Part shown: positions 11,263 to 55,214 of the stretch, piece by piece
Position numbering within the stretch: position 1 is the first letter of the stretch
How the letters are laid out: each line of letters opens with the position of its first letter
Source: Sulfurospirillum deleyianum DSM 6946
Lineage (GTDB): Bacteria; Campylobacterota; Campylobacteria; Campylobacterales; Sulfurospirillaceae
DNA length: 64,000 nucleotides
Direction of reading: 5' to 3'
NCBI RefSeq assembly: GCF_000024885.1
Contig: NC_013512.1
Location: 2,232,001-2,296,000, forward strand
Made by a program: the position numbers and the translations under genes
The notes under the pieces: model-generated
The model's input: only the letters and a program-made list of their open reading frames with translations
What the model was told of the DNA's origin: nothing
Databases searched by the model: none

Positions 11263-12530
11263 TTAGTAAAAAGTTTTGTTCCTACATACTCGCCATAAAC
11301 GACTTCATTTTCAATATCCAATAAACGATTGTATTTTGCCGTTCGCTCACCACGTGCGGTTGCACCTGTTTTGATTTCACCGGTATTGAGTGCTACAGCA
11401 AAATCAGCGATAAACGCATCTTCACTCTCACCACTTCGATGGCTCATCACACATTTATAATTGTTGCGTTGAGCAAGACGAACGGTTTGCATCGTCTCTG
11501 TAACGGTTCCAATTTGATTTGGTTTAATCAAAATTGCATTACCAATCCCTTTTGCAATGCCCTCTGCTAAGATTTTCGTATTGGTTACAAATAAATCATC
11601 ACCGACGAGTTGTACTTTTGAGCCCAATTTTTCAGTTAAAAGCTTCCAACCATCCCAATCATCTTCGCTCAAACCATCTTCAATCGAAACAATCGGATAT
11701 TTTGCGCAAAGATTTTCATAATACGCCACCAGTTCTGCACTGCTTAAGACACGATTTTCAGACTCTAGTTTGTATCCACCCTCGCACACCAATTCACTGC
11801 TTGCGACATCAAGGGCAATCGCTATATCTTTACCTGCGGTATAACCCGCTTTTGCAATCGCTTCCATAATGACTTTAATCGGCTCTTCATTGTCTTTAAG
11901 ATTAGGAGCAAAACCACCCTCATCACCCAAAGCGGTACTCTCACCCATAGAAGCAATAATTTTTTTCAAGTGGTGATACACTTCTGTTGCCGCACGCAAG
12001 GCTTCAGAAAAAGTCTCAAAGTTTAGAGGCATAATCATGTACTCTTGAAAATCAACGCTGTTATTCGCATGGCTTCCACCGTTAATGATGTTAAACATCG
12101 GGGTGGGAAGTGTCATCGCATTTGCGCCACCTAAATAGCGATACAAAGGCACACCTAAACTCTGCGCTGCAGCACGAGCCACTGCCATAGAAACACCCAA
12201 AACAGCATTCGCACCTAAGCGACCATAATTATCTGTACCGTCAAGTTTTTTCATTGTTTCATCAATGAAGGCTTGATTAAATGGACTTAAACCAATAAGC
12301 TCATCTGAAATCTCCGTGTTGACATGTTCACATGCTTTTAGCACGCCTTTGCCCATATAGCGACTGTCCGCATCTCTAAGCTCCAAAGCTTCTCGCTTAC
12401 CGGTACTGGCACCACTAGGAACAATGGCACTTGCAACCGTACCATCACTTAAACTGACACGTGCTCGAACGGTTGGGTTTCCACGGCTATCGAGTACCTC
12501 ATCTGCGCTTATATCTTCGATATAGATCAT
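11259..12530 (-). CDS. eno: Enolase
   Basis: 423 residues. It interconverts 2-phosphoglycerate and phosphoenolpyruvate. Motifs are canonical: [12 protein letters not shown] (about 13-24), [43 protein letters not shown], the metal-binding [14 protein letters not shown] and [22 protein letters not shown], and [10 protein letters not shown]. It overlaps the 3' end of recA by 4 bases and the start of the FtsB-like gene by 4, so the run recA-eno-ftsB-like is tightly coupled. Confidence 0.98.
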
Positions 12531-13570
12531 TCATCTTCCTTTATATCATCAACGCCACATGCCATCACCATGGCATTGCCACTGATGGCTTGTTTGATTT
12601 TTTCTTCAATTTCTAAAGCAAGTGCTTTATTTTCTTTCAAGAAGGCTTTGACATTTTCACGTCCTTGCCCCAATTTAGTCTCATTATAGCTAAACCACGC
12701 ACCACTTTTATCGATGATATCGAGCTTTACACCATAATCAACAATTTCACCCTCTTTGGAAATGCCTTCGCCAAACATAATATCAAACTCTGCTTGACGA
12801 AACGGAGGAGCGACTTTGTTTTTAATGACTTTGGCTTTGACTCTGTTACCAATTTGCTCTTCACCTTGTTTGAGTGTCGCAATTTTTCTCACATCAATAC
12901 GCACAGAAGCATAAAATTTAAGTGCATTTCCACCTGTGGTGGTTTCAGGAGAACCATAGCCCATCGTTCCAATTTTCATACGAATTTGGTTAATAAAAAT
13001 CACCGTCGTATTCATTTTGTGCACAACAGCGGTCAGCTTACGAAGGGCTTGACTCATAAGCCTCGCTTGAAGTCCTACGTGGGTATCACCCATATCGCCC
13101 TCAATCTCGCTCTTAGGAGTGAGTGCCGCCACCGAATCCACAACAATTACATCCACAGCGCCACTGCGTGCAAGGGTTTCAACGATATCTAACGCTTGTT
13201 CACCAAAATCAGGCTGAGAGACCAAAAGATTTTCAATATCAACCCCTAAATTACCTGCATATTTTACATCGAGTGCGTGTTCTGCGTCCACAAACGCACA
13301 AATACTTCCCTTAGCTTGCGCCTCGGCAATAATCTGAAGGGATAAAGTTGTTTTACCCGAACTTTCAGGTCCATAAATCTCAATAATTCGACCTTGTGGA
13401 ATACCGCCAATCCCCAAAGCCAAGTCAAGCCCAATAGAACCTGTACTAATGGCAGCAATGGGTTCAACCACCTTATCACCAAGTCTGACAAGCGCACCTT
13501 TTCCAAATGCCTTATCAATCTGTTTTATCGCAAGTTCGAGTGCTTTTCTCTTATTTTCATCGATTTGCAT
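12527..13570 (-). CDS. recA: RecA recombinase
   Basis: 347 residues from the ATG at 13570 ([19 protein letters not shown]), preceded by GAGGGG. The longer frame runs into the repeat element upstream and is not the likely start. Walker A is GPESSGKTT, Walker B is [12 protein letters not shown], and loop L2 contains [14 protein letters not shown]. It drives homologous recombination and strand exchange. The unusual point is upstream: a 166-bp terminal-inverted-repeat element (13590-13755) ends 20 bases before the start codon, so the promoter is either within or beyond that element. No clear -10 box was seen in the 20 bases between. Confidence 0.98.
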
Positions 13571-13589
13571 GGGACCCCTCATTTCATAG

Positions 13590-13755
13590 TAGACTTCTTT
13601 CATAACCCTTGAAAAGATAAAGAGTTTGCTAAGAGTGCGTTAATTTTTAAAACTCAAAATTGAGTCATAGCCAAAGCTATGGCGATATTTTTAGTTTTAA
13701 AAAGTGATGTGCTATAAGCGATACTCTTTTTCCAATGGGTTATGAAAGAAGTCTA
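13590..13755. repeat. MITE-like 166-bp inverted-repeat element, copy 1
   Basis: The ends are perfect 19-bp inverted repeats (TAGACTTCTTTCATAACCC and its complement). The halves remain partly complementary inward, and the centre holds the small hairpin CATAGC-CAAA-GCTATG. A near-identical copy lies at 31454-31618. There is no coding capacity. It sits between divergent recA and mqnD. No clear target-site duplication is visible. Confidence 0.85.
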
Positions 13756-13888
13756 GTGCTATTATTTTATCATTTCGAGCTTGAAAAAGCCCTTTGAAGC
13801 GATTGTAGTCAAAAATCAAAAAAGAGGCTCAAAATATTTCAATCTGCAATATGTTACAATGCCAAAAGATTTACATGTAAGGATTTTT

Positions 13889-14755
13889 GTGAGAACACTT
13901 AGCGTAGCACACTCCCCTGATGCTGATGATATTTTTATGTATTATGCCATCAAATTTGGCTGGGTGGACACAGGCGATGTCTGCTTTGAAAATATCGCCT
14001 TAGACATTGAAACCCTCAACGTTGAAGCCTTGAAAACCACCTATGATATCAGTGCAATTAGCTTTGCGTTGTACCCTAAAATTCGAAACGATTATGCCCT
14101 TTTGCGCACGGCGGTGAGTTTTGGTGAAGGGTATGGTCCCAAACTGGTCAAGAGAAAAGAGACCAAACTCAAACGCAATTTTAAAGTAGCGCTCAGTGGT
14201 ACACACACGACCAACGCCCTTTTGTTTAAAATTGCTTATCCTGAAGCACGCATTGTCTATAAAAACTTTTTAGAGATTGAAAATGCCGTTTTGAGTGGCG
14301 AAGTCGATGCAGGGGTTTTAATTCACGAGAGTATTTTAAATTTTAATGATACCCTTGTTGTGGAGCGTGAGATATGGGATATTTGGAAAAGCTTAACGCA
14401 AGGCAAAGAGCTTCCTCTCCCACTGGGTGGCATGGCATTGCGCCGTTCTATGCCATTATTACAAGCCATTACCTGTGAAAAAAGCCTCATTAAAGCAGTT
14501 GATGTTGCTCACACCCATCAACACGTACTCTCTAAAATGCTGCTGGAGCGAAACCTTGTCAGAGTCGATGATGCGACCCTTAAAACCTATTTGGGGCTCT
14601 ATGCCAACGCACACTCTATCGAGATGAGTGATGTGCAATATGAAGCGATTGATACCCTTTTTGAACTTGGGTATAAACATGGTTTTTACGATCAATGCAT
14701 CAAGGCTAAAGAGTATCTGATTCCTCACGAATACGAAACATTAAGAATGAGCTAA
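13889..14755 (+). CDS. mqnD: 1,4-dihydroxy-6-naphthoate synthase of the futalosine menaquinone pathway
   Basis: 288 residues from the GTG at 13889, chosen because AAGGA lies 5 bases upstream and the protein then begins VRTLSVAHSPDADDIFMYYAI, the usual MqnD start. The family is a periplasmic-binding-protein fold that converts cyclic dehypoxanthinyl futalosine. Supporting segments are TLNVEALKTTYDISAISFALYP, ALSGTHTTNALLFKI, GVLIHESILNF and LPLGGMALRR. The ribosome binding site overlaps the TTACATGTAA copy at 13871-13880. It starts a run mqnD-fliQ-murB with gaps of 1-3 bases. Menaquinone is the expected quinone for the Psr-like enzyme downstream. Confidence 0.88.
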   Translation: MRTLSVAHSPDADDIFMYYAIKFGWVDTGDVCFENIALDIETLNVEALKTTYDISAISFALYPKIRNDYALLRTAVSFGEGYGPKLVKRKETKLKRNFKVALSGTHTTNALLFKIAYPEARIVYKNFLEIENAVLSGEVDAGVLIHESILNFNDTLVVEREIWDIWKSLTQGKELPLPLGGMALRRSMPLLQAITCEKSLIKAVDVAHTHQHVLSKMLLERNLVRVDDATLKTYLGLYANAHSIEMSDVQYEAIDTLFELGYKHGFYDQCIKAKEYLIPHEYETLRMS

Positions 14756-15803: not shown

Positions 15804-16808
15804 TTACATGTAAAAGATATCCTTAGAAGAGCTACGCACTTTCAACTCTTCTAAACTCACAAAAACACCTTTTTGATAAGCTTCCACACCACATCTGCCA
15901 ATCATCGCAGCATTATCGGAACAAAATGCCATTTTAGCGGTGTAAAGTTGCGCTTTTTTAGAGGCACAAAAACGCTCAAGTTCCCCCCGCAAATAGAGAT
16001 TGGCACTCGCTCCACCAACCACGCCAAAGTGCTCTACTTTTCGCGCTTGATACGCTTTTTTTATTTTTTGCATTAAATGCGCTACGGCGACACGCTGAAA
16101 CGAAGCGCAAATATCGCACAGGATTTGCTCATCCATCCTCTCTTGCGCCTCAATGCAAAGTCTGACTTGATTTTTCAAACCGGAATAGCTAAAAGCCAGC
16201 ATCGAAGAGGAGGTTCCTTGCAAAGGAATGGTAAAATCAAAGCACTTCGCATCCCCTTTTTGAGCGTACGTTTCAATAATCGCCCCCGCAGGGTAGGGAA
16301 GTCCTAACATCTTTCCCACTTTATCAAAACTCTCACCAAAGCTATCATCCATCGTTGTCGCAAGCAGTTCAATCTGCTCTAAACTCTTTACATGTAAAAG
16401 CTGTGTGTGTCCTCCAGAGACGAGCAGAACATCCATCGGAAAACGTGTCTCTTCTTCAATAAACAAAGAACAGATATGCCCCTTAAGGTGATTGATACCT
16501 AGCAAAGGAAGATGGAGCGCCACACTCAGCGCTTTTGCCATACTCACCCCTTCAACAAGGCTCACCGAAAGTCCTGGCTCATTGGTCACCGCAATCGCTT
16601 TAAGTGCCTCAAAATAGGGTTGTGTCTCTTCTAAAATCTTAGGTAAAGTGATCGCATGAAGACGCGCAGCCAGTTCTGGTACCACGCCACCATACTTGGC
16701 ATGTTCTTCATCTTGGGAAATTTTTTTATGAAAAAGTAGTTTTTTATCCTCTATGCGTGTGATGGCAATCGAGCTATCATCACAGCTACTTTCGATACTT
16801 AAAATCAT
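15804..16808 (-). CDS. tsaD: tRNA N6-threonylcarbamoyladenosine transferase TsaD
   Basis: 334 residues from the ATG at 16808 (MILSIESSCDDSSIAI); the longer frame overlaps the upstream gene. It belongs to the Kae1/Gcp family and transfers the threonylcarbamoyl group to A37 of ANN-decoding tRNAs. Metal ligands are in the GINHLKGHI motif. The ATP-binding strands LLVSGGHTQLL, DDSFGESFDKVGKMLGL and VVGGASANLYLR are present. The stop codon is supplied by a TTACATGTAA copy (15804-15813), so the protein ends in Tyr-Met. The start overlaps the stop of the M15 peptidase gene as ATGA. Confidence 0.96.
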   Translation of the reverse strand: MILSIESSCDDSSIAITRIEDKKLLFHKKISQDEEHAKYGGVVPELAARLHAITLPKILEETQPYFEALKAIAVTNEPGLSVSLVEGVSMAKALSVALHLPLLGINHLKGHICSLFIEEETRFPMDVLLVSGGHTQLLHVKSLEQIELLATTMDDSFGESFDKVGKMLGLPYPAGAIIETYAQKGDAKCFDFTIPLQGTSSSMLAFSYSGLKNQVRLCIEAQERMDEQILCDICASFQRVAVAHLMQKIKKAYQARKVEHFGVVGGASANLYLRGELERFCASKKAQLYTAKMAFCSDNAAMIGRCGVEAYQKGVFVSLEELKVRSSSKDIFYM

Positions 16809-31415: not shown

Positions 31416-31453
31416 ATTTAACCTTTACATGTAAAGAGGATTTGGTTCTTATT

Positions 31454-31618
31454 AGACTTCTTTCATGCCCCTTGAAAAGATAAAGAGTTTGCTAAGAGTG
31501 CGTTAATTTTTAAAACTCAAAATTGAGTCATAGCCAAAGCTATGGCGATGTTTTTAGTTTTAAAAAGTGATGTGCTATCAGCGATACTCTTTTTTCAATG
31601 GGTTATGAAAGAAGTCTA
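31454..31618. repeat. MITE-like inverted-repeat element, copy 2
   Basis: This is nearly identical over its whole 165 bp to the element at 13590-13755, with fewer than ten differences seen. One is in the left end (CATGCCCC for CATAACCC), so its terminal repeats are imperfect. It is in the same orientation, in the divergent intergenic region between ogt and the gamma-glutamylcyclotransferase-like gene. Confidence 0.85.
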
Positions 31619-47677: not shown

Positions 47678-47756
47678 TGAAACATTAAACAAGTTGTAAA
47701 TTGTTTTTTTTGCGTTTTGTTGACTTTGACAATAATAATTTAAATAACATCTTTAT

Positions 47757-47792
47757 GTTCTTTCATCAAATGGCAAAGCCATCTTAAAGAAC
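47757..47792 (-). promoter_or_regulatory. Leader-type hairpin before 23S (antitermination/processing signal)
   Basis: On the minus strand: GTTCTTT, an inner stem GATGGC-TTT-GCCATT, then AAAGAAC. A structure of the same design and length precedes 16S (49693-49728). Both are preceded by a similar stretch containing GTGCTTTAG. The pair resembles boxA/boxB-type rrn antitermination elements. The rest of the 47635-47936 spacer holds the 23S stem arm and one TTACATGTAA copy (47874-47883). Confidence 0.6.
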
Positions 47793-47936
47793 CAAACCTA
47801 AAGCACAACGCACATGCATCGTATCATAAGTTTTAGAACACAAACTTAGACTAAAAAAGTCTAATAACAACTCTTACATGTAAAAACTGTTATTAAACTT
47901 CTTAAGATCTTCTTGAACAATGTTTACCATAAAAAA

Positions 47937-49688: not shown

Positions 49689-49692
49689 GTTT

Positions 49693-49728
49693 GTTCTTTT
49701 AGCAGACAGCAAAGCTGTCTTAAAGAAC
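49693..49728 (-). promoter_or_regulatory. Leader hairpin before 16S (antitermination/processing signal)
   Basis: On the minus strand: GTTCTTT, inner stem AGACAGC-TTT-GCTGTCT, then AAAGAAC. Its design is the same as the hairpin before 23S (47757-47792), so this is a repeated rrn leader element. GGTTCTTTAAG resembles boxA. Confidence 0.6.
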
Positions 49729-49843
49729 CAAATACTAAAGCACGAAGCAAAGCTTCTGTATCTTAAGTATCCTTCATAAATGAAGTGTTGATTATTATCT
49801 CTTTGTTTTTGAAGAGGTGATAATCTCTTACTTTTTTGCGTCC

Positions 49844-52633: not shown

Positions 52634-53827
52634 TTAATGATGTTCTCTAAAGTCACTGACTGAGAGAATACTATCAAACACTTTGTAGACAATCATAATC
52701 ACACCTAAAGAACCAACCACAATCAATACCTCACCTAAATGAGGAGCCACGTAATTAAATGATTTTTCTAAAGCATAAAAATCATATTTCTCGTAACCCA
52801 ACCCAAAACGATTAGACATTGGATTCGCATTACCACCATAGACAAAGATATATCGTCCAACAAAACCACCTATGACCACACACACAGACGCAAGAAGGGT
52901 ATAAAGTGATTTACCTGGTTTGAAAATAAAGAAAAACGGTAACGCCAATGTCAATAAGATATAACCCCCAAAGTAAATAGGTTTAAACGGTCCAAAAAGA
53001 ATTAAAAAAGACCAATCTTTATCCACTGCCATATAACCAAAAACTTCATAAAGCGCTAAGATGGATACGAAAAACAACATTGCTTTTCTAATTAAATCCA
53101 TTAATTCATTATATTCTTCTTTATTTTTGTGGACTAAGTAACTATAAATACCCATTACACCCAAAGAAGAAACAAATGCTGAAATAATAAAATAAAACGT
53201 CAAAAATGGAAACTCTGTCCAGAGATGACGCGCGGTATTCATAGAAAACAACTTCGCTTGAATATAATACTCCACCAAATCCACGCCAATGCTTAAAACC
53301 AAAATAGGTAAAGCCAAACGTTTTGCCCACTCTCTTTTATTCGTCAAAAGTAAGTAAATTTCAAACAGAACAAAAGGAATATAGGTACAATAAAGCGGTA
53401 ACATTAACCACATACCCGCACTTATATTTGGTGTCAAGACCATCCACAGCATATTGAGCATGTTCAAATCCGTTGCGATGGTAAAAAGTCCTGCAAACAC
53501 CATAGACAAACCAACTGCCATAAATCCAGCCGCTGCTTTAGCAATCACATGAAAACCCATCAACTCAGCCAACGCAACAATAAAAATAACGCCACTTCCT
53601 GTGTAAATCATGTACATGTAATTCACGATAAACAGTGTCCATGGGATATTACGATTTACCTCTCCGACATCGCCAAATACGGCTAAACGCATTGCCTCTT
53701 TGAGCGCAGGGTCCGTTGGATTAAGACCTGAAGCATGAGCATTGGCGGCTGCACTAAAATACCTCACATCAAAAATCTCATAAATACCTACCATGGCAAG
53801 AAAAAGGAAAAAATATCCAATAATCAT
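52634..53827 (-). CDS. psrC: NrfD/PsrC-like membrane subunit (quinol-interacting)
   Basis: 397 residues from the ATG at 53827 (MIIGYFFLFLAMVGIYEIFD). An open frame extends further into the IS element, but an in-frame stop exists in the reconstructed pre-insertion sequence, so that extension is accidental. There are about nine or ten membrane helices; NRNIPWTLFIVNYMYMIYTGSGVIFI, SAGMWLMLPLYCTYIPFVLFEIYLL and SIGVDLVEYYIQAKLFSMN are NrfD-like. It would exchange electrons between menaquinol and the FeS subunit. The IS element begins 24 bases upstream, so its normal promoter (upstream of psrA) is cut off. Confidence 0.82.
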   Translation of the reverse strand: MIIGYFFLFLAMVGIYEIFDVRYFSAAANAHASGLNPTDPALKEAMRLAVFGDVGEVNRNIPWTLFIVNYMYMIYTGSGVIFIVALAELMGFHVIAKAAAGFMAVGLSMVFAGLFTIATDLNMLNMLWMVLTPNISAGMWLMLPLYCTYIPFVLFEIYLLLTNKREWAKRLALPILVLSIGVDLVEYYIQAKLFSMNTARHLWTEFPFLTFYFIISAFVSSLGVMGIYSYLVHKNKEEYNELMDLIRKAMLFFVSILALYEVFGYMAVDKDWSFLILFGPFKPIYFGGYILLTLALPFFFIFKPGKSLYTLLASVCVVIGGFVGRYIFVYGGNANPMSNRFGLGYEKYDFYALEKSFNYVAPHLGEVLIVVGSLGVIMIVYKVFDSILSVSDFREHH

Positions 53828-53846
53828 TGTCTTATTAAATAAGAGC

Positions 53847-55214
53847 TCATCTTTCGCACCTAAATCCCAGCAATTCTTGAGTTGCACTTCGTAGTGTAGC
53901 AATTATACTGGTAAAATCCTTATTGTTCTTTACAATCTCATCAATTTGTGCTATTTTGTCCATTATTTCAATAAACGCTTGCATAGCAATAGAAAGCGTG
54001 TAGAGTTCACACTCCAAATCTTTAAATAATCCACCAATGGTTTTTGGCTCATGGCTGATTCTATTGATGTAGCTGACAATATTGTAAGCAAAGAATGAAA
54101 GTGTCATTCTAGCAATCAGTGCTTCATAGATTCTATTTTCTTCTTGTCCAAACCCAAAGTATTCTCTGAGCTCTTTATAGCCTTGTTCTATATCCCATCG
54201 TCGTTTATAAATCTCAATAATCTCTTCATCATTGAGTTCTAAATCGGTGGAGACAATAGGGATGAGATTGTCGGTGGTTTTAATAAAAACAATTTTGAGT
54301 TTCCCTGCATTTTTATGTTCAACAACGGTTGAAAAATAGCTAAAGCGAATCTTCTTGCCATATGTTCCCACTTTGGCATTTTTAAGCTTTTTGTGTTTTT
54401 CATACATGGCATTCAGTGTTTTTTCTTTGTCATTAAAGTTCCAAATCTTAGTGTTGTTAGCAATTCTTGAAATGACCTTTAGACCCAAATCGTTCATCTC
54501 TTGGATAAAGGCTGGTTTAGAGTACCAACTGTCAACCAGCAAGTAATCAGCGTATATACCACTGTGTACAGCTCTTTTTACCATAGCCAATGCTATCTTA
54601 GACTTACCCTCCATAATCTCCATTCTTCGTTTGTAAGCGTTGCAACGGATATCGAGTTCTGTACTAAACTCTTCAACTTTAACGCGGGCATAGTTTCCCA
54701 TGCTCATTGCAAAATCTATCATAAAATTTGAATAACCATCACTATAATTCAAAGAAACAACATTGATCCCTCTAATGGTTCGCTTCTCTTTATTGCTCCA
54801 AAGTCCATCACGACTCCCCTCTATATATTTACCTGTTTTACCCTCAACCGTATCATCCATAATAAAGACTTTTATTGACGAAGCATCTTGGACTTTATGC
54901 AAAAGCTTGATGATTTTTAAAGTGCTTAAAGAGAGAAGTTTTCTCCAGTTGTAGCTACTATTTTGCAAAAGTCTGTAGTAGGTGTCTTTTTTAAAACTCT
55001 CATTGCTTTGGTGCATAAACGAAGATATCTTTTTATTCATCACCAACATATAGACAAAGTGTAATACAACAAGATAGGGGGCTACGCCTTCTCTTTTCTT
55101 TACAAAGTTAGCACGGTGTAAAATACTCTTGATGTTTAAGAGTTGCAGTGTTTGATATATGGGGTTTTTAAGCGTTGTATTTATGGCCGATAGGATCTGT
55201 TCTTGAAGATTCAT
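53847..55214 (-). CDS. IS4-superfamily DDE transposase
   Basis: 455 residues. DDE motifs: KVFIMDDTVEGKTGKYIEGS (first Asp), DYLLVDSWYSKPAFIQEM (second Asp) and the Y-x2-R-x3-E segment YKRRWDIEQGYKELREYFGFG (Glu). The reading frame runs through the left inverted repeat and uses a TGA in the flanking target DNA as stop. It looks intact, so the element may still be active. The exact family (IS4 versus IS1634-like) is unresolved. Confidence 0.92.
   Translation of the reverse strand: MNLQEQILSAINTTLKNPIYQTLQLLNIKSILHRANFVKKREGVAPYLVVLHFVYMLVMNKKISSFMHQSNESFKKDTYYRLLQNSSYNWRKLLSLSTLKIIKLLHKVQDASSIKVFIMDDTVEGKTGKYIEGSRDGLWSNKEKRTIRGINVVSLNYSDGYSNFMIDFAMSMGNYARVKVEEFSTELDIRCNAYKRRMEIMEGKSKIALAMVKRAVHSGIYADYLLVDSWYSKPAFIQEMNDLGLKVISRIANNTKIWNFNDKEKTLNAMYEKHKKLKNAKVGTYGKKIRFSYFSTVVEHKNAGKLKIVFIKTTDNLIPIVSTDLELNDEEIIEIYKRRWDIEQGYKELREYFGFGQEENRIYEALIARMTLSFFAYNIVSYINRISHEPKTIGGLFKDLECELYTLSIAMQAFIEIMDKIAQIDEIVKNNKDFTSIIATLRSATQELLGFRCER

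Follow-up and report, generated by a model that had tools for sequence, protein, structure and literature searches.

A mobile MITE in front of recA in Sulfurospirillum deleyianum carries a strand-specific hairpin found with other transposon ends in Campylobacterales

The window analyzed here, 64,000 nucleotides (positions 2,232,001-2,296,000) of the closed 2,306,351-bp genome of S. deleyianum (length also in PMC3035281), contains recA and a divergent mqnD-like gene, and between them lies a 166-bp element (Table 1). A second copy in the window is flanked by a divergent ogt-like gene and a GGCT-like gene. The initial annotation described a near-identical pair with 19-bp terminal inverted repeats, a partly self-complementary interior and no coding content. 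The repeat, TAGACTTCTTTCATAACCC, is perfect at both ends, no open reading frame was found within the 166 bp, and the self-complementarity extends over the entire element, which forms one hairpin. The two copies are indeed close relatives (97% identity across 166 bp), but copy 2 starts one base earlier than first given, and the pair belongs to a set of seven copies in the whole genome, the other five lying elsewhere; the one at 1424016 has a decayed left end.

Table 1. Features of the recA region and of the two element copies, in positions of the window
Feature	Position	Strand	Remarks
recA	12527..13570	-	347 aa from ATG after Shine-Dalgarno; start codon CAT at 13568-13570
recA Shine-Dalgarno GAGGGG	13575..13580	-	outside element and hairpin
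Target duplication, left, copy 1	13588..13590	+	AGT (ANT class)
MITE copy 1	13590..13755	+	166 bp including terminal TA; strand is the one favoring the hairpin
Left terminal inverted repeat, copy 1	13590..13608	+	identical to ends of the 909-bp IS in G019
Core hairpin apex, copy 1	13660..13688	+	TTGAG-TCATAGCC-AAAG-CTATGGC-GAT; 3x3 internal loop UGA/GAU
Right terminal inverted repeat, copy 1	13737..13755	-	
Target duplication, right, copy 1	13755..13757	+	AGT
Conserved recA extended -10 TGATAAAAT	13764..13772	-	8 bp from element
mqnD-like gene	13889..14755	+	divergent from recA
MITE copy 2	31453..31618	+	target duplication ATT

Read along the minus strand, the extended -10 is followed after 8 bp by the element, and the recA ATG comes 19 bp beyond it. 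The mechanical recA reading frame runs 11 residues longer, to an in-frame ATG at 13603 inside the element. Both the -10 region and the purine-rich Shine-Dalgarno sequence are also kept in relatives without the element. The element had been expected to influence or contain the recA promoter. Since the conserved extended -10 is intact just upstream, the insertion probably alters the untranslated leader and not the promoter, so that the expectation stands for the leader and falls for the promoter, which lies outside copy 1. An internal promoter in copy 1 driving recA was rejected as the default on the same grounds. Copy 1 landed between the extended -10 and the Shine-Dalgarno sequence, and transcription would still begin at the old promoter, at a predicted start site near 13757 (~7 nt below the -10, just before the element), and read through the element. 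The leader is predicted to be ~190 nt long instead of ~20-25 nt, and its minus-strand hairpin of ~-60 kcal/mol would end before the Shine-Dalgarno sequence and leave it free. The insertion is a natural experiment that puts a 166-bp hairpin into the stretch separating promoter and start codon of recA, the SOS recombinase gene, and it sits in the type strain, with clean empty-site relatives available for comparison.

Comparison with relatives showed that the recA site is empty in every aligned relative in the genus, including the three nearest, whose mqnD is 91-95% identical. The copy 2 site is empty in genomes G003 and G005, where the two flanks directly adjoin, and the site of the S. deleyianum copy at 16048 is empty in G005 and G014, bringing to three the S. 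deleyianum insertions with known empty sites. Across 24 genomes of the genus the near full-length copies number ~60; their identity is 85-97%, and almost all measure 163-168 bp. When left and right flanks of 62 copies were compared, the target duplication proved to be 3 bp, ANT, with the variable base matching in 73% of copies compared to 39% with shuffled flanks, and with an exact duplication in 27/62. The element proper, inside this duplication, reads AGACTTC...GAAGTCT. Reading the duplication as TA or TANTA was rejected, as the terminal TA stays with the element even beside an outer flank of TG. Searching plasmid and phage collections with the element gave zero matches, and spread by either vehicle was rejected for this reason.

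Terminal repeats, a non-coding length below ~200 bp, a target duplication, dispersed copies with empty sites, and ends in common with an autonomous element (described below) are the features that define a bacterial MITE, and all were found. The proposal that this is a mobile, non-autonomous MITE, which the initial annotation suggested should be judged by counting copies, finding empty sites and locating a transposase with the same ends, is well supported by seven copies, empty sites, the ANT duplication and the presence in a sister species (G019) of an IS5-family IS whose ends are identical. The opposing idea, a non-mobile structured RNA gene that was merely duplicated, would fit the stable and conserved structure but is contradicted by the empty sites, target duplications and IS-identical ends, and we give it almost no weight. 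It is refuted as an alternative to mobility; a mobile element and a conserved strand-specific structure are both true.

The insertions lie 24 in divergent versus one in convergent regions. This apparent avoidance of convergent regions is significant against intergenic length, yet was rejected as a property of the element since it is roughly accounted for by the density of TANTA sites (243 versus 49). The genus also contains 34-bp mini-palindromes such as TAGACTTCTTTCAATGGGTTATGAAAGAAGTCTA (L022 ~995-1030, G000:C1:1750580-1750614; L066 at 294, G017), which consist of two fused terminal repeats with the hairpin interior deleted. An old shared insertion (L236 501-664, G008:C1:1923517-1923680) has a central stem-loop that runs opposite to the stem, as though recombination inside the palindrome had turned it around.

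Searching the 19-bp end through the genus identified four 909-bp insertions in G019, which itself holds few MITE copies, with exact copies of the end at their borders. This IS has two overlapping frames with HTH_Tnp_4 and DDE_Tnp_4 domains and a best NCBIfam match to IS5_4. PF13613 and PF13359 scored above cut-off, and NF033581 matched at E 7.9e-31 but fell short of its curated cut-off, since each frame was scanned on its own; by these matches the partner transposase belongs to the IS5 family. Members of the ISL2 group within this family are recognized by a 3-bp ANT duplication, the pattern seen here, together with their place in the group phylogeny. The IS supplies the ends of the MITE, but the two have only ~19 terminal bp in common, and the interior is not IS-derived. 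A transposase 63% identical to that of G019 is present in five other genomes, and where its IS could be delimited this is a 918-bp element with ends TAGACATCTTGCAAAACTC, related but not identical; the identical-end IS was found in G019 only. The earlier remark that no matching transposase is encoded in the window was correct, and it extends to related transposases in the whole S. deleyianum genome. The copy-rich genomes G004, G012, G020 and G043 were also searched and have no related transposase.

These genome comparisons are consistent with movement in trans, in which an IS5-family (HTH_Tnp_4 + DDE_Tnp_4) transposase would recognize the TAGACTTCTTTCATAACCC ends, move the MITE and duplicate ANT, and the source IS would survive with identical ends in G019 and be gone from S. 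deleyianum. Because S. deleyianum and several copy-rich genomes lack a related transposase, the copies are probably now stranded, or were moved by a source that was later lost. We assign a probability of roughly 0.8 to the explanation as a whole: a MITE moved in trans by an IS5-family source, inserted in the recA leader and carrying a separable strand-specific hairpin module.

The hairpin itself turned out to be the unexpected part. The whole of copy 1 folds as one hairpin, with -78 kcal/mol on the + strand versus -30 for shuffles (z -14). Each genus copy folds over its full length, and the same strand folds better in 62/62 (mean -75 versus -52 kcal/mol). Pair columns of the favored strand contain 542 G-U and 49 A-C cells, counted in a structure taken from that same strand's fold, which leans the count; a randomly decaying palindrome is expected to give equal numbers. 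Replication-linked cytosine deamination was rejected by reasoning as the cause of this asymmetry, as it would yield A-C on the favored strand. Outside the apex, the G-U excess on the favored strand was found in 27 of 28 representatives. A set of 27 divergent representatives, drawn from three families, has 97.4% of cells paired and two-sided changes in 24 of 58 pairs; 0/500 shuffles scored as high, and the slid control was also far off. Conserved secondary structure with compensatory changes, one mark of a structured RNA, is thus present.

In other families the elements are 73-80% identical and have retained both hairpin and polarity, and the favored strand is also the more stable one in all divergent elements. 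With DNA parameters the same strand is again more stable (77/77 and 32/32; energies -41.6 versus -33.8), and the strand difference is larger with RNA than with DNA parameters. An Rfam search returned no family at threshold and only chance miRNA hairpin matches far below it, on which basis a known RNA family was rejected.

A covariance model built from an alignment of the divergent representatives was run on 399 Campylobacterales genomes and matched ~53 of them, in 14 of 87 genera, of which the weakest matches may be chance. The divergent elements that were read mostly keep the apex TTGAG-TCATAGCC-NN-AGCTATGGC-GATG or close variants, the core hairpin being UGAG-stem-GCGAUG. This core is flanked by three kinds of terminal repeat (TAGACTTC, GGGCACCTCT and CCCAAATCTCGAAATAG) and occurs in elements of two length classes, ~158-167 and 264-271 bp. 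The TAGACTTC ends were found with more than one stem type, indicating that ends and core have been mixed. The pattern points to a strand-specific hairpin module that has been conserved and can be separated from its ends. Elements of the longer class (L281-L289, L291, L294-L296, L300) contain a second hairpin beside the core (e.g. ...TTGCGTAGCCGTAGCTACGGATGAG...), similar in design and apparently on the opposite strand.

The hairpin also has a preferred direction relative to replication. Fork direction was taken from third-codon-position GC skew in the 11-20 kb around each copy, with the S. deleyianum terminus near 1.05 Mb. About a third of the regions in the genus set were ambiguous by local GC skew, and in the scorable genus copies the favored strand is the low-G strand in 26 of 31, or 22 of 26 when orthologous insertions are counted once (p = 5e-4). 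The divergent set, with all end types, gave the same polarity in 17/19, and the two sets together in 39 of the 45 insertions that could be scored (p about 5e-7), regardless of the ends. No bias was found relative to the direction of neighboring genes (23 versus 24). Because polarity relative to the core is constant over differing end types, the core is a simpler common factor than any single transposase. These results point to a conserved hairpin module that is oriented to replication and has passed from one kind of transposon end to another, and we infer a replication-linked, DNA-level role or constraint for it. The hairpin may act as RNA, as single-stranded DNA, or be only tolerated one way round. 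A fuller proposal is that the UGAG-stem-GCGAUG module with its tandem G-A internal loop has moved across Campylobacterales among mini-transposons whose ends are unrelated, with fork polarity fixed, and itself serves a function, either coupled to replication or as RNA; we hold this tentatively, at somewhat below even odds.

The polarity could instead arise at insertion, if a transposase guided by the sliding clamp or the fork inserts in one orientation, in which case the hairpin would play no part. There is precedent in the orientation biases of Tn7 and several IS families, which are tied to the beta clamp (PMC5371812), and the IS and MITE ends differ slightly between left and right just inside the common 19 bp. 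However, the core-relative polarity is equal on three end types that presumably use different transposases, and the G019 IS copies are of mixed orientation (n = 4), making insertion bias an unlikely explanation, albeit one with appreciable weight.

It is also conceivable that the interior is a functional structured RNA, with the + strand transcribed and folding around the UGA/GAU tandem G-A internal loop as a riboregulator or protein-binding RNA riding on transposon ends. The excess of G-U over A-C, the compensatory changes in the stem, the conservation of a non-Watson-Crick loop in a core common to three end types and the greater strand difference with RNA parameters all fit this idea. Nonetheless, orientation is unbiased with respect to neighboring genes, an internal promoter was not recognized by eye, the known promoters at recA would transcribe the less stable strand, all Rfam families fell below threshold, and fork polarity would not be expected from an RNA function alone, so we consider this reading rather improbable.

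Lastly, the polarity might reflect a passive filter, in which hairpin cleavage or deletion removes insertions whose better-folding strand is the lagging-strand template, leaving one orientation of a functionless hairpin. This would match the position of the more stable strand on the low-G strand, i.e. off the lagging-strand template, as well as its greater stability with DNA parameters. But the gap in DNA energies is modest, and a filter leaves both the compensatory pairing on the favored strand and the sharing of the core across end types unexplained; we judge it improbable.

REP/REPIN sequences with their RAYT transposases are likewise intergenic hairpins with internal mismatches and strand-specific structure, and their hallmarks are the RAYT partner and a GTAG foot. 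The present element shares the strand-specific, mismatched intergenic hairpin, but differs in its long terminal repeats, and its DDE-type transposase partner and target duplications argue against membership. RUP of Streptococcus pneumoniae is a small non-coding repeat whose ends match the resident IS630-Spn1 and for which movement in trans was proposed (PMC2229807). The element described here resembles RUP in all of these respects except that its IS is of the IS5 family, makes a 3-bp ANT duplication and is absent from S. deleyianum, and that its interior is a conserved hairpin also found with other ends. Correia/NEMIS elements of Neisseria (~100-155 bp) have TA termini and long stem-loops, lie near genes, enter transcripts and come in two size classes (PMC2229807). 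Termini, stem-loop, gene adjacency and two size classes are shared, whereas the NEMIS stem-loop has been discussed as an RNase III substrate and the present element has one favored strand with a polarity that follows replication. CIR elements of Caulobacter and Brucella have a phylogenetically conserved RNA structure with two arms (PMC2229807), a likeness by structure description alone, as the core here is another hairpin with a UGA/GAU loop.

Bacterial MITEs are mostly regarded as passive hairpins defined by their ends. Here a mobile MITE of the usual sort occupies an interesting site, and it unexpectedly contains a conserved hairpin module whose strand and direction relative to the fork are fixed. 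In these elements it is the interior that persists from one end type or family to the next; one strand is protected and the replication orientation is fixed, which makes selection on MITE hairpins, at the DNA or RNA level, testable. If true, this would be a MITE-borne module with its own function, which MITEs were not known to carry.

Other repeats and an insertion were observed in the window. The palindrome TTACATGTAA occurs at 33 sites in 64 kb (e.g. 1391, 13871, 31327, 31425 and 63161) versus 0.16 expected from base composition, making it a highly iterated palindrome with about one site per 2 kb, and TTTACATGTAAA occurs at 13 sites versus 0.01 expected. The gene for an NrfD/PsrC-like membrane subunit (52634-53902) is overlapped at its 5' end by an IS encoding a 455-aa transposase (53847-55214, - strand), and IS sequence seems to have displaced or replaced the start that the gene originally had. 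Two 41-bp repeats (47756-47796 and 49692-49732), 83% alike and with a small internal palindrome (AGCAAAGC-like), are possibly shared regulatory or terminator sites.
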